Shown: in pieces, positions 98-7,640 of the stretch | Position numbering within the stretch: the first letter of the stretch is position 1 | Layout of the letters: each line of letters opens with the position of its first letter | Origin: Terriglobales bacterium | GTDB lineage: Bacteria > Acidobacteriota > Terriglobia > Terriglobales > Acidobacteriaceae | Assembly: GCA_025980765.1 (NCBI GenBank) | Contig: JAICXB010000003.1 | Span: 1-64,000, forward strand | DNA: 64,000 bases | Reading direction: 5' to 3' | Notes under the pieces: model-generated | Database searches by the model: none | What the model saw: the letters and a program-made list of their open reading frames with translations, nothing else | What the model was told of the DNA's origin: nothing | Made by a program: the position numbers and the translations under genes

Positions 98-880
98 TTG
101 CTGGGAAACTGTGTCAGGTCACGTTGTACCGGCAAAGAACGAGACGGCGAGTCCGGGTTGGATTACTTTGGGGCCCGCTTCTACAGCTCAAACCAGGGCC
201 GCTGGATCATTCCGGACTGGAGCGCTTCGCCGGAGCCAGTGCCCTATGCCGACCTCTCCGATCCGCAGTCGCTCAATCTATACGGATACGTTCATAACAA
301 TCCTCTGCACCGCACTGATGCGGACGGGCACTGTGATGTGGACGGAGAACACCACGGATCCATTTGGTGTGCAGCGCATTTTTTTGGGATTACGGAGACT
401 CAGAAGGAGCATAAGGCGGAGCAAGAAAAAGAGAAACAACTGCAAGAGCAGCAACAGCGGGCAAAGGCTGCATGGGAGAAGCAGCATCCTGGCCAATCGT
501 ATGCTTTACATCAGCTGAACCTTTCAATGCAGCTGACGCCTATGGCTGGATTTGGACTGATAGGTGAGGGTGCCGAAGCTGCGGAGGGCATTCAAGTCAC
601 AGAAAGCGGGCTGACTCATGTGCTAGCTCGCCACACTATTGGAGGGGCAACAACCGCAGGAAAGAGCATTTTTGCTCTCGGAGAGGATATTCCTGGGCTA
701 ATTAAGGCCGCAGAGTCTGTTGCGCCGGCGCAAGCGGAGAATGGCAATTTAGTGAGAGTTATTGATGCTGGGCGAGTAATCGGAACCGATGTCACGACGG
801 GACAGCCAACATCGATTTATACAGTCGTTACGAATTCGGCTAACGAGCTAGTGACTGCGCATCCCGGAGCGCCTAGATGA
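98..880 (+). CDS. Orphan Rhs tip with C-terminal RNase-like toxin domain
   Basis: The first recognisable part, from base 120 on, is the end of an Rhs core: TGKERDGESGLDYFGARFY, a GRW segment, then LNLYGYVHNNPL and DADG, the usual Rhs hinge. After a Gln/Glu-rich coiled linker (residues about 110-135) comes a variable C-terminus (about residue 155 to the end) with HVLARH, a SIF motif, TGQPTSIYTVV and VTAHPG near the end. This His/Thr/Tyr arrangement resembles BECR-fold RNase toxins of contact-dependent inhibition systems; that fold assignment is inference. The frame is open from base 2, so the TTG at 98 is only a nominal start and the window edge may cut the gene. The residues before TGKERD do not look like Rhs core, which suggests a displaced tip. 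The next gene, 12 bases on, is the likely immunity gene. Confidence 0.7.
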   Translation: MLGNCVRSRCTGKERDGESGLDYFGARFYSSNQGRWIIPDWSASPEPVPYADLSDPQSLNLYGYVHNNPLHRTDADGHCDVDGEHHGSIWCAAHFFGITETQKEHKAEQEKEKQLQEQQQRAKAAWEKQHPGQSYALHQLNLSMQLTPMAGFGLIGEGAEAAEGIQVTESGLTHVLARHTIGGATTAGKSIFALGEDIPGLIKAAESVAPAQAENGNLVRVIDAGRVIGTDVTTGQPTSIYTVVTNSANELVTAHPGAPR

Positions 881-892
881 AGGAGAGTTGAA

Positions 893-1189
893 ATGCCCTG
901 GAACGTTCGTCTTGAGGACGAGAATGGAGAAGTTCTTGAGGAGGTATTGACCATTTTCGGCTTCATTCCTAAATCCCAGCAAGGGGGTTTTGTCTTACTT
1001 AGTTCCGTCGATCCGTATGGAGATACCACATTCAACCGACCTCAGATGCAATTGTTTCTTGACGAATGGCAGAAACTGGAGAATGCAGCAAAGGAAAATT
1101 CGCAGCTAGAGAAATGGAACGCAGTGAAAGTCCTATCCCTGCGTTGTCAATCAGAACCCCACACCTATCTCAAGTTCGTGGGCGACTAG
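893..1189 (+). CDS. Probable immunity protein for the upstream Rhs toxin
   Basis: This gene encodes a small acidic protein of 98 residues (starts MPWNVRLEDENGE) with no signal peptide or membrane segment. It begins 12 bases after the Rhs-tip stop and has a clear ribosome-binding site (AAGGAGAG) just before the ATG, so it is translated in its own right. I do not recognise a named family. Position, size, acidity and cytosolic character fit an immunity protein that binds and neutralises the toxin domain encoded just upstream; this is inference from polymorphic-toxin gene order. The longer overlapping frame that begins at 1066 is not its competitor, because the Rhs-like residues of that frame start only after this gene ends. 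Confidence 0.7.
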   Translation: MPWNVRLEDENGEVLEEVLTIFGFIPKSQQGGFVLLSSVDPYGDTTFNRPQMQLFLDEWQKLENAAKENSQLEKWNAVKVLSLRCQSEPHTYLKFVGD

Positions 1190-1194
1190 TCAAC

Positions 1195-2718
1195 GTGAAC
1201 ACGCGGCGACCTGACCTGGGCCGTTCAAGCCGACATGTCGGCACCTACACCGTGGGGGAGCCCACTCGCAATCAGAGCTTCGGCTATGACGATCTCAACC
1301 GCCTCACCCTGGCCACGCAAGCCGACGGCGCCTTCAATCAGACCTTCACCATCGATCCATGGGGCAACACCCAGCAGTCGGGAACGTGGAACTTCCAGCA
1401 ATCGTTCACGGCCGCCAATCAGATTCAGGGCTATCCGTATGATGGCGCCGGCGACCTGCTTAGCGACGGCTTCAGTAACTACGGTTATGACGCCGAGCAC
1501 CGCCTCACGAGCGCGACCAGAATCTTGGATGGACTGCAATCAACCTACACCTACGGTCCCGATGGCGATCGCGTGAGAAAGGACACGGGCGGCAGCTTCA
1601 CCGAGTACATCTACTTCGCCGGTGAACCGATCGCGGAGAAGACCCCCAGCGGCTGGACCGACTACATCTTTGCGGGAGACCAGCGCATCGCCCTAGCCAC
1701 GGGAAGCACCAGCGCCGGCACGCAGTTCTATCACGCGGATCATCTTGGCAGCGAGCGCATGATGACCGACGCGGCAGGCAATGTGATCTCCAACTGCCTG
1801 TTCGCCCCATTTGGTCAACAGGTCTCGTGTTCGCCTGACAATCCCGCGAATCATTACAAGTTCACCGGCAAAGAGAGGGATGGCGAGAGCGGCCTGGATT
1901 TCATGGAAGCCCGCTACTACGGATCGAGCATGGGCAGGTTCATGAGTCCAGACCCCTTAGGTGGGCACTATGAAGACCCCCAGACGTTGAATCGGTATAG
2001 CTACGTTCGGAACAATCCTCTCAATCTGTCCGATCCTACTGGTCTGGACTTCAATCTCCAGTGCACGCAGACGAAGGACAACGCTTCAACCTGCCAGGGT
2101 GGAGTTGTGGGCACGACGACCACAACGACAGACGCGAACGGCAACACAACTTCTACCTTTACGCCAACCGTCGTGACGAGCGCTTCTTTGCAAGACCCGA
2201 ATAGCGGCAACACGGCGACCGTGAACCAGAATGGTGTGCAGATCACGACGGGTGGCCAGGCCTATCAAGGTCAATTCATCAGCAACACGCCCGCAGCGGA
2301 TATCCAGGGCAGCGGCGAGTTGAAAGATTTCAATTTCCACGTCGATGGCAACTGCGGTGGAACGTGCATGAGTTCCGGTGAATGGAGTTATCACGGTTCG
2401 CTGAATGACGCGCGTGCCCTGCTGTATCAGAGAGGTTCGTTCACAATTCCGTTCGAGGACATGCGTGCAGGCTTCGGCTTCGGTGCGCATCCCTTCTCAA
2501 CACAGCATCGTTTCGGAGGAGCTGACTGCTCGTTCTTCTCCTGCCCGAACTCCCCACATCTGTCGGTTGCGTACGATCCAGGAACCTCAAATTACCTAGC
2601 CGCAGTTAAGCAGGAGCCGAAGGCAAACGTACCGCAAACATCGAATGGAGGCTTCCACGTCGATTTCCATGCTGATTGGCTAGGCCACGCCAAAGACGTG
2701 AGCAACAATCCGCAATGA
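1195..2718 (+). CDS. Rhs core fragment with variable C-terminal tip, N-terminus missing
   Basis: YD-repeat and Rhs-core motifs run in order: FGYDDLNRLTLA, DPWGN, YGYDAEHRLTSA, YGPDGDRVRKD, YHADHLGSERMMTDAAGN, FAPFGQQ, the junction KFTGKERDGESGLDF, SPDPLGG, LNRYSYVRNNPLNLSDPTG. The hinge lies near base 2040. The remaining 225 or so residues form a private tip, first Thr-rich then with a GGFHVDFHADWLGHA end that I cannot assign. Complete Rhs proteins exceed 1000 residues and carry a secretion-related N-terminus; here the homology starts abruptly about 50 bases after the immunity gene. The GTG at 1195 has no good ribosome-binding site, so this may be an unexpressed reserve cassette that joins a full Rhs gene by recombination. 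Its stop overlaps the start region of the next small ORF. Confidence 0.7.
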   Translation: MNTRRPDLGRSSRHVGTYTVGEPTRNQSFGYDDLNRLTLATQADGAFNQTFTIDPWGNTQQSGTWNFQQSFTAANQIQGYPYDGAGDLLSDGFSNYGYDAEHRLTSATRILDGLQSTYTYGPDGDRVRKDTGGSFTEYIYFAGEPIAEKTPSGWTDYIFAGDQRIALATGSTSAGTQFYHADHLGSERMMTDAAGNVISNCLFAPFGQQVSCSPDNPANHYKFTGKERDGESGLDFMEARYYGSSMGRFMSPDPLGGHYEDPQTLNRYSYVRNNPLNLSDPTGLDFNLQCTQTKDNASTCQGGVVGTTTTTTDANGNTTSTFTPTVVTSASLQDPNSGNTATVNQNGVQITTGGQAYQGQFISNTPAADIQGSGELKDFNFHVDGNCGGTCMSSGEWSYHGSLNDARALLYQRGSFTIPFEDMRAGFGFGAHPFSTQHRFGGADCSFFSCPNSPHLSVAYDPGTSNYLAAVKQEPKANVPQTSNGGFHVDFHADWLGHAKDVSNNPQ

Positions 2719-4768: not shown

Positions 4769-6232
4769 CTAGCTTTTTCTTCTCTGAATCGTGCTCGTAG
4801 CCGCATGTACCAATGCTGCGGCTCCCGCGCGCACCGTGGCTTCATCGAGCGCGCCAAATCGAAGCAGGAGGCCATCATCACTTCGGTGAGCTACGCGATA
4901 GGCGCTGAGCAACGCCAGCTCCAACCCGCTACTTGCCGCAACTGAACGCACGTAGTCGCCTCGCTCATGTCGCACCAGGAGATGCATGCCAGCGGGATTG
5001 CCTGCCCAGCTCCAGCCTAGACGCCGGAGTGGCGCCAGGCTTTCGATCAGAGCGGTGCGCTTGGTTCCATAGACGCTGCGCATGCGGCGCAGGTGCGACG
5101 AGAAGTGTCCCTCATCCATCAACAGGCTCATGGCCATTTGTTGCAGGGCCGGCGTAAAGCCGTCGAGCTGTGTACGAAGGTTGGCCAGCGGCTCGACAAG
5201 TCCTTCCGGCAACACCGCGTATGCCAGGCGCAGAGAGACAAACATGGACTTGTTCAGCGTGCCGACATACAGAACCCGCGCATGGGAATCGAGCGCATGC
5301 AGCGCTGTGAGCGGCTGTCCTTCGTAGCGGAACTCGCCATCGTAGTCGTCTTCCACAATCCACGATTTGTTCTGCGCTGCCCATTCAAGAAGCGAGATGC
5401 GGCGCTCCAGGCTCAGCGCCACGCCGCTGGGATACTGATGTGTGGGCGTGACGTAAGCGAGCCGCGCGCGCGGGGAGCGGCGAATACCAGCATCGACGCG
5501 AATGCCTTCATCGTCCACGGCAACCGGCGTGATTTTTGCGCCCGCGAGCGTGAATGCTGCGCGCGCGCCGAGGTAGCAGGGGTCCTCGATCCAGACCGGA
5601 TCGCCGCGATCGAGCAGCAGTACCGAAATGGCATTGAGCGCCTGCTGCGAGCTGTTGAAGACGATAACCTGGCCGGCGTGACAGCGTATCCCGCGAAACT
5701 GAGCCAAGTAACGCGCGATGGCCGCGCGCAGATTCGGCAAGCCGCGCGGATCGGCAAAGGTGAGCGCATTGCGCCCGAGCTCGCGCGCGGCCCGCGCCTG
5801 CATGCGCAGCCACGTCTTCCACGGAAACTCGCTGGTATCGGCCACTCCCGCATTGAACGCACGCAGCCGCTCCGGCTCGCGGCAGGCGGCATTGGCCGCA
5901 ATCCGAGCCCCTCGGCGCGAAGCTGTAACCGGAGCTCGCTGAGCGCGATTGCGCGATGCCGGCGCGCTCAAACGCGACATGGTGCTGGTCACAAACGTGC
6001 CACGTCCGACGGCACGATGGAGGAAGCCTTCGTCGGTCAACTGTGCGAAGACCTCTTCCAGCATTCCGCGGGAGACGCCGTAGTCCGCTGCAGCCTGCCG
6101 GGTGGAAGGAAGCCGTTCGCCGGGAGCGAGAACGCCATCCAGCACCGCAGATCGCAGAGTGCGATACAGGTCGCCGCGGCGCACGCGGACTGCGCGAATT
6201 GGTGGAAGCAGCGCTCCTCGCGATCTACGCAT
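4769..6232 (-). CDS. MocR/PdxR-type regulator (GntR HTH fused to aminotransferase-like domain)
   Basis: The product has 487 residues. Residues about 15-85 are a GntR winged helix (GERLPSTRQAAADYGVSRGML, then GRGTFV). Residues about 120-480 are a fold-type I aminotransferase-like domain with NSSQQALNAI, EDPCYLG, VEDDYDGEFRYEG and the PLP lysine K328 in VGTLNKSM. Such proteins are transcription factors that sense PLP or an amino compound; the best known activate pyridoxal phosphate synthesis, but no pdx genes are nearby, so the target is open. It is divergent from the thioredoxin-like gene, sharing a 97-base gap with a palindrome, and may regulate it. The start has GGAGAG upstream. Confidence 0.9.
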   Translation of the reverse strand: MRRSRGALLPPIRAVRVRRGDLYRTLRSAVLDGVLAPGERLPSTRQAAADYGVSRGMLEEVFAQLTDEGFLHRAVGRGTFVTSTMSRLSAPASRNRAQRAPVTASRRGARIAANAACREPERLRAFNAGVADTSEFPWKTWLRMQARAARELGRNALTFADPRGLPNLRAAIARYLAQFRGIRCHAGQVIVFNSSQQALNAISVLLLDRGDPVWIEDPCYLGARAAFTLAGAKITPVAVDDEGIRVDAGIRRSPRARLAYVTPTHQYPSGVALSLERRISLLEWAAQNKSWIVEDDYDGEFRYEGQPLTALHALDSHARVLYVGTLNKSMFVSLRLAYAVLPEGLVEPLANLRTQLDGFTPALQQMAMSLLMDEGHFSSHLRRMRSVYGTKRTALIESLAPLRRLGWSWAGNPAGMHLLVRHERGDYVRSVAASSGLELALLSAYRVAHRSDDGLLLRFGALDEATVRAGAAALVHAATSTIQRRKS

Positions 6233-6329: not shown

Positions 6330-7640
6330 GTGAAAAAAGTCCTCATCTTGATCTTGCTGTGCGCTTCGCTGACGCCGGCGTTCGCAGCCGGCAAGGGCCT
6401 GCCATTCATTGCCGACGATTATGGCAAGGCCCTGGCGCAAGCGAAGCAGCAGAACCTGCCGATATTCGTCGAGTGCTGGGCGCCATGGTGATCCACCTGC
6501 CGCCTGATGCGAGCCGTGTTGGCGCAAGCCGACCTCGCCAGGTACGCCGGACAGTTTGTCTGGCTGGAGCTCAACTACGACAATCCGAACAATCGCGCGT
6601 TTCTGACGAAGTACGGGGCAAGCGCCACGCCTACATTCTTCGTGATCGATTCCCAAAAAGAATCTGTAGCGGCCACACAAACCGGCGCGATGTCGCTGCC
6701 CGAATTGAAGAACTTCCTCGATCGGGGCGCCAAGACCGTCCGGGCCGGCGGACAAGCTCCGGCGGATGCTGCGCTCGTCAGAGGTGATGCTCTCCTGGCT
6801 CAGCACCCAGCAGAGGCAGTGAAGGCATACCAGCAAGCCCTTGGGATGGCGGCGCCTACGTGGCCAAAGCGCGGGCTGGCCGCGGCCTCACTCGTCGCAG
6901 CGCTGCAGGCCTATCACCAGCGGCAGCAATGTTCGGAAACCGCCGCAGCCGAAGCCGCTCACATGGAACGCGATTCCGTCTTTGGACGAACCGTCATGAC
7001 GGGCATGTGGTGCCTCGTCTCTCCCGGTCCTGCTCCGTGGTCCAAGGCGGCAGCGGCAAAACTGGAACCCCTGGCGGACGAAGCACTGCAATTGCGCACC
7101 ACCGTCCGCGATCATCGCGACGAGCTCTATCGCACGCTCATGTATCTCGCATTGTCCCAAAATGACACGGCAACAGCAACCAAGTTGGGCGACCGCTGGC
7201 TGGACGAACTCGATGCCATTAAACCGGCCAACGATGAAGAGCGCTCGGCAGTGGACATCGCGCGCGTCGAAGAAATTCAAACCTACGGCGATCCGGCGCG
7301 AATCCTACCGGCGCTGATCGCGTCGGAGCGCGCCATGCCCGGCAACTACAACGCTTCACTCCGAGTCGCCCAAATGGAGAGTGCGGCGAAGCATTACGAC
7401 CAGGCAATCGACGCCTGCGATCGCGGCCTCAGTCGCTCTCCAGGCGCAGCCGGCCGCTCCTGGCTACTGCGCACGAAGGCCGATGCTCTGATGCAAAAGG
7501 GACGAACCGAAGAAGCTCATCAGGCCCTCGAGCAGGCGCTGGAGGCTGCACACGCGATTCCCAACCAGCACTCGCGCGAGACGAACAGCAGAATGATCCA
7601 TGCCCTGCTGGCGCAATCCTCCGGCAGCGCGCAAAAGTAG
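6330..7640 (+). CDS. Periplasmic thioredoxin-like protein with in-frame TGA at the CxxC site; candidate selenoprotein
   Basis: From the GTG at 6330 (GGAG 7 bases upstream) the frame gives a signal peptide (KKVLILILLCASLTPAFA), then PIFVECWAPW, a TGA at codon 54 (6489-6491), then STCRLMRAVL, the thioredoxin middle (QFVWLELNYDNPNNRAF, ASATPTFFVID) and a TPR-like helical C-terminus up to residue 436. In homologues as I know them the TGA position is the first cysteine of the redox motif CxxC after WAPW. Here it reads UxxC, the classic selenoprotein arrangement, and a long hairpin follows directly. Both sides of the TGA are intact and in one frame. The next ATG (6507) would give a protein lacking the active site. 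Alternatives are a nonsense mutation or a base error; reading as selenocysteine needs selA, selB and selC elsewhere in the genome. Confidence 0.75.
6503..6542 (+). promoter_or_regulatory. SECIS-like hairpin downstream of the in-frame TGA
   Basis: The 40 bases fold into one long interrupted stem: CCTG with CAGG, a 2-base bulge, GCGAG with CTCGC, a 4-base bulge, then GTTGGC with GCCGAC around a GCAA loop, 15 pairs in all including one G-U. The apical loop starts with G and lies 32 bases after the TGA, within the 16-37 base spacing I recall for bacterial SECIS models. It lies inside coding sequence, as bacterial SECIS elements do. Function would be SelB binding and selenocysteine insertion. Confidence 0.6.

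Follow-up and report, generated by a model that had tools for sequence, protein, structure and literature searches.

The locus examined here raises the question of whether an in-frame TGA at the active site of a thioredoxin-like gene is decoded as selenocysteine (Sec) and, if it is, what in the messenger RNA directs the decoding. The window, that is the whole stretch of 64,000 nucleotides that was analysed, corresponds to C56:1-64000 of a 3.5-Mb MAG that is 84% complete. The features of immediate concern are the following.

6330-7640, plus strand: coding sequence of the putative thioredoxin-TPR (Trx-TPR) selenoprotein; GTG start, 436 codons, codon 54 = TGA (Sec), TAG stop
6489-6491, plus strand: TGA codon very probably read as selenocysteine; 37 TGA against 5 TGC at this codon of the family
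6489-6491 plus 6492-6500, plus strand: predicted U-S-T-C redox motif, made up of the TGA codon and the next three codons

Evidence bearing on the in-frame TGA

Codon 54 is the sole interruption of the frame before its TAG stop, and both the 436-codon frame with its single TGA and the residues around it (ECWAPW-U-STC) are as the earlier note had described them. An ordinary gene caller would return only a truncated ORF at this position, which for the window means 377 aa beginning at 6507. By searching for homologues with stop codons read through, and then searching more widely, we obtained 42 genes in which the codon-54 site can be read. The codon is TGA in 37 of these (the window included), TGC in five and TAA or TAG in none; L110 and L203 are identical, which leaves 36 distinct TGA forms. 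Each of the four closest orthologues (61-64% identity) has one TGA, at the same codon, and TGA forms span many Acidobacteriota families, with one further form (L119) coming from an Eisenbacteria MAG. A loose DNA pattern scan returned mostly chance matches, yet it picked up L110, L119 and L125. Weak thioredoxin matches that had been flagged as carrying a TGA (L021, L022 and others) were rejected, as the stop there ends an ordinary thioredoxin or lies off frame and does not belong to a redox motif.

The earlier note had considered a chance nonsense change at exactly this codon improbable, and the recurrence of TGA at the same codon in 37 family members bears this out. It had also suggested looking for Cys codons in homologues, which the alignment supplied (TGC in five), and would have counted as refuting any relatives in which the TGA is accompanied by further disabling changes, of which there were none. 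The five Cys forms (L181, L191, L192, L211 and L213) are nested among the TGA forms, and at least three changes are needed even on the starred branches of the IQ-TREE phylogeny. Downstream of the TGA, dN/dS is 0.11-0.2 in pairs of TGA forms, a range that also holds the values past codon 54 in a pair of Cys forms (0.16-0.18). Such values speak against gene decay as well as against a UGA at which translation normally ends.

With regard to the Sec machinery that the earlier note asked for, most but not all of it was found. The genome from which the window comes encodes a full-length selB (376.8 bits) with both mRNA-side winged-helix domains, a regular tRNA-Sec with a UCA anticodon, and selD; selA did not turn up in the MAG, which is 84% complete. 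All four of the closest carriers (three other searched genomes of the genus and G195) have selA above cut-off, as do 35 of 37 further carrier genomes, including the Eisenbacteria one; it was not found in carrier G374. The selD gene is present in 40 of 41 carriers. We infer that the absence of selA from the window's MAG reflects a gap in the assembly. The selD gene of the window's own genome (L045, G000:C90:13166-14089) itself contains a TGA in frame (QVKAAG-U-ASK) with a hairpin beyond it at the distance usual for a SECIS, and the relative G195 has TGC at that selD codon.

We consider it very probable that the UGA of this Trx-TPR oxidoreductase is decoded as Sec; the selenoprotein reading of the earlier note is supported, in that the checks that can be computed came out in its favour. 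Decoding as some other amino acid (Cys via a variant tRNA, or Trp by suppression) would be in keeping with the Cys found at codon 54 in five homologues and with the failure to find selA in the window's MAG. However, that genome has a regular tRNA-Sec (UCA), selB and selD, nearly all carriers have selA, and with a Cys-charged tRNA both selD and selA would be needless and there would be no reason for TGA over TGC; we hold this possibility to be very unlikely. A little less likely still is a scheme of two products, in which the UGA terminates translation and a restart occurs at a Met six codons on (ORF 6507-7640). It is true that a 377-aa ORF begins at 6507 and that the Met at residue 60 is nearly invariant. 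Yet a restart there would split the thioredoxin fold right where the active site lies, while the active-site strand, Cys57 and everything upstream are conserved; moreover, Cys forms read through codon 54 and the RNA structure described below accompanies the TGA state. Finally, the window gene comes from a single MAG, and one could imagine a nonsense change in a pseudogene or an assembly or sequencing mistake. The same TGA in 37 assemblies from many families, in genes that are otherwise intact and constrained past the TGA (dN/dS 0.11-0.2), makes this hardly credible, and at the level of the family it is already refuted.

RNA structure past the UGA and its bearing on SelB

6502-6543, plus strand: hairpin 1, 42 nt, variable, proposed spacer helix; folding and covariation
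6546-6564, plus strand: hairpin 2, GCCGGAC-AGTTT-GTCTGGC, proposed SelB-binding SECIS module; present in 37 of 37 TGA forms, with codon-level constraint
6553-6557, plus strand: apical loop of hairpin 2, 61 nt past the UGA

The 78 nt past the codon were folded and compared with 300 versions encoding the same protein, their codons drawn from the gene's own usage. The mean folding z was -3.19 in the 37 TGA forms against -0.79 in the five Cys forms, and the control value (110 windows elsewhere in TGA genes) was -0.21. Two hairpins account for the excess folding in the TGA forms. These computations demonstrate that in TGA forms the RNA structure is preserved over and above what the protein sequence demands, and that it is mostly lost in Cys forms.

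Hairpin 2 is the only hairpin common to all 37 TGA forms, in which it is nearly invariant at the nucleotide level (consensus GCCGGRC-RGUUY-GYCUGGC). The constraint is apparent at the level of single codons: (i) the Ala codon is GCC in 37 of 37 compared with 35% elsewhere; (ii) the Gly codon is GGA or GGG in 37 of 37 and never GGC, though GGC makes up 50% of Gly codons elsewhere; and (iii) the Val codon is GTC in all TGA forms but one. That the protein does not require these codons follows from the Cys form L211, where the same AGRFVW is written GCG GGC CGT TTC GTG TGG. The first and last bases of the loop are G-C in 20 forms, A-U in 10, A.C in 7 and G.U in none (Fisher p 5.6e-5, a value that, like the pair counts, ignores kinship). 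Hairpin 2 has been lost in the Cys forms L211, L191, L192 and L213 and is kept in L181 (G250:C288). Since the nearest relatives of L181 are TGA forms and its hairpin 2 is intact, it looks like a recent Sec-to-Cys change, and the hairpin is probably a relic SECIS. One base pair of hairpin 2 that is A-U or G-U in the others is preserved as G-C in L195 (G256:C217), through a Val-to-Ala change that turns FVW into FAW; here the RNA may constrain the protein.

Hairpin 1 is less uniform. In the 31 distant TGA forms it occupies columns 12-57 and shows compensatory changes (at 24/48, GC in 13 and CG in 8), and the joint covariation score of hairpins 1 and 2 in these forms exceeds all 500 shuffles. Between 77 and 81% of cells are paired in its lower and middle helices, and it is partly paired also in four of the five Cys forms. 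Its register differs between the distant forms and a near group (the window, L016-L019 and L215), which has one codon fewer between the UGA and hairpin 2 and a hairpin 1 of 42 rather than 46 nt. RNAalifold run on all 37 sequences recovers just the apical part of hairpin 1 together with hairpin 2, a consequence of the codon that the near group lacks, and the two groups were hence treated apart.

In the bacterial SECIS model most loops lie 16-37 nt from the UGA (PMC13188914). Hairpin 2 of the window, which alone folds with -11.0 kcal/mol, fits that model in loop, stem and energy; the distance from the UGA to its loop, 64 nt in distant forms and 61 nt in the near group, is outside the range. When hairpin 1 (46 or 42 nt) is subtracted, the spacing becomes 18 or 19 nt, which is within it. 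The near group has one codon fewer and also a hairpin 1 that is 4 nt shorter, so that the effective spacing is still 18-19 nt. We infer that the UGA would be decoded by SelB with Sec-tRNA-Sec and that the most likely SelB target would be hairpin 2; its apical loop, R-G-U-U-Y, conforms to the loop pattern of bacterial SECIS elements. Hairpin 1, when folded, would then serve as a spacer and reduce the distance to hairpin 2 from 61-64 nt to 18-19 nt in effect. The simplest reading, which has comparative support and which we favor with moderate confidence, is that of a normal SelB module moved outwards by a spacer that folds.

The principal alternative is that the protein is a selenoprotein but that SelB recognises either an ordinary hairpin 16-37 nt past the UGA or the apical part of hairpin 1, with hairpin 2 employed otherwise, for example in slowing the ribosome. 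The model cited above places most SECIS loops in just this interval, and a canonical-range stem with a loop G can be drawn in 23 of the 37 sequences. On the other hand, 14 of the 37 have no such candidate, and the candidates in the others vary in loop and location. Of these, the best shared candidate (columns 18-33) has no covariation above shuffles and is incompatible with hairpin 1. As for hairpin 1 itself, its loop (UUCACS) lacks a G at the first and second positions in the 31 distant forms. Hairpin 2 alone occurs in all TGA forms. A proximal target is an unlikely explanation, though one of appreciable probability.

An Rfam search of the window gave no match. When an RNA model of the element (R1) was run against 396 genomes of the phylum, all 18 matches lay in the Trx-TPR gene, with Cys forms (G250 and G484) accounting for two. 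These genomes yielded no second gene that has the element, under strict filters that may lose weak ones, and the element is therefore known from one gene family only. In the selD genes of the same genus, a comparison confined to clear own-genus sites, the SECIS candidate is at the ordinary position and has a stem similar to that of hairpin 2 (UCCGGC-GGU-GCUGGA in the window's genome).

There is precedent for atypical SECIS elements in bacteria (PMC13188914; deep-Sep paper, PMC12013277), and the Trx-TPR family would provide a concrete case with comparative support. Returning to the reading of a SelB module displaced by hairpin 1, we lean towards placing the element in a bacterial SECIS class of its own, one where RNA architecture rather than the number of nucleotides would set the distance, and which would belong to a new Acidobacteriota Trx-TPR family with a member in one Eisenbacteria genome. 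A search program that applies the 16-37 nt rule would miss hairpin 2. As the element is portable (~90 nt), it could make the distance tolerance of SelB directly testable in E. coli reporters.

Protein architecture and genomic setting

6330-6389, plus strand: probable N-terminal signal peptide (VKKVLILILLCASLTPAFA-A), read by eye; similar N-termini across the family
6408-6725, plus strand: thioredoxin domain, residues ~27-132, with invariant Pro101; PF00085, PF13899, fold model, structural matches and invariant columns
6759-7625, plus strand: C-terminal TPR superhelix, residues ~144-432; Pfam TPR_2 and TPR_19 above cut-off, model and structural matches

In the read-through protein PF00085 covers residues 39-131 (38.5 bits against a cut-off of 23.5), and PF13899 is also above its cut-off in the thioredoxin domain. 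An AlphaFold2 model built from 37 family members has a mean pLDDT of 92.9, with values above 90 over most of the length of the TPR part. The thioredoxin part of the model superposes on solved thioredoxins (Z ~15-16) and the remainder on TPR proteins; residue 54 is predicted to lie immediately before the first active-site helix. Residues 54, 57 (Cys57) and Pro101 are invariant in the family, which gives the U-x-x-C spacing with a Pro opposite. The UxxC motif, together with a second Cys and a Pro101 that never vary, makes it most likely that the protein is a thiol-disulfide oxidoreductase, in which Sec would be the attacking residue of the motif. Across the family the N-termini are signal-peptide-like by eye, two with lipobox-like ends, which points to the periplasm or the membrane as the site of work; the protein would thus be exported, being periplasmic or, in some relatives, a lipoprotein. 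The TPR superhelix probably docks partner or client proteins, a role that we propose on the model of CnoX, a Trx-TPR chaperedoxin.

The genomic setting was examined in 12 other genomes, in which no adjoining gene is conserved across families; within a single family (f27), some genomes have neighbours in common. The divergent neighbour in the window (4769-6232, minus strand) encodes a MocR-type regulator with GntR and aminotransferase class I/II domains, and it was not found beside the Trx-TPR gene in the other genomes examined. At the left end of the window (98-2718, plus strand) are frames with RHS-repeat-like motifs (KERDGESGLDYFGARFYSS).

The pattern scan also brought up WAPW-TGA-x-x-C in thioredoxin- or TlpA-like frames from Actinomycetota (L064, L105, L107, L137 and L165), Geobacteraceae (L156), Desulfobacterales (L082) and Verrucomicrobiales (L161), which are candidates for further UxxC selenoproteins. 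In a Dehalococcoidia MAG (L159) one locus has two TlpA-like frames, each with FWAPW-TGA-x-x-C, which would appear to be a pair of similar candidate genes for selenoproteins, both encoded on one strand.

Comparison with known systems

The TPR domain, the breadth of the family and the SECIS-like RNA element are the more novel parts of the present analysis and go beyond the earlier note. The Trx-TPR protein stays below the cut-off of every NCBIfam model (June 2026), and Trx-TPR proteins are missing from a 2026 catalogue that lists 119 families of prokaryotic selenoproteins; the same review leaves Acidobacteria unmentioned (PMC13188914). Our literature search, which covered openly accessible published papers, found nothing on a Trx-TPR or Acidobacteria-specific selenoprotein. 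The family would add an uncatalogued selenoprotein, predicted to be exported, across many Acidobacteriota families.

Among catalogued selenoproteins the nearest in kind are a Sec-containing thioredoxin (PF00085, UxxC) and a thiol:disulfide interchange selenoprotein (PF13098, UxxC) (PMC13188914). They share with the window protein the thioredoxin fold, Sec where the first redox Cys would stand and the same disulfide oxidoreductase chemistry. However, they are listed without TPR, whereas the window protein is predicted to be exported and has a TPR superhelix of ~300 residues, and the likely SECIS of the Trx-TPR gene is at a non-standard distance. Two other selenoproteins with a thioredoxin_7 or DsbD-like domain, Trx7/PDZ (NF041199) and the TsoB rhodanese/DsbD-like protein (NF045694), give weak partial matches to that domain (scores of 14-16 and 24-33 bits, where the cut-offs are 300 and 805) and differ in partner domains and Sec motifs.

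The order of domains has a precedent in the chaperedoxin CnoX/YbbN of E. coli (PDB 3qou), where an N-terminal thioredoxin domain is likewise followed by a TPR domain (PMC6282202). Foldseek matched the window protein to 3qou with E 5.7e-5 and 12-13% identity in the structural alignment, although the TM-score is only 0.2-0.3. CnoX/YbbN has an SxxC or CxxC motif and is not known to contain Sec, in contrast to the UxxC of the window protein. CnoX/YbbN is a holdase and a cytoplasmic partner of GroEL and DnaK, and to our knowledge it has no signal peptide; the apparent signal peptide of the window protein argues against a cytoplasmic site.

With respect to the recoding signal, the canonical SECIS of bSECISearch has an apical loop N1-G-[G/U]-N-N2 with N1-N2 pairing and a stem of 7-10 bp, and hairpin 2 fits this description. 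It differs in lying 61-64 nt from the UGA as opposed to 16-37 nt, with another hairpin between. In biochemical terms the Trx-TPR protein extends the UxxC thioredoxin group by a new member, and the signal for its recoding counts as a new variant.
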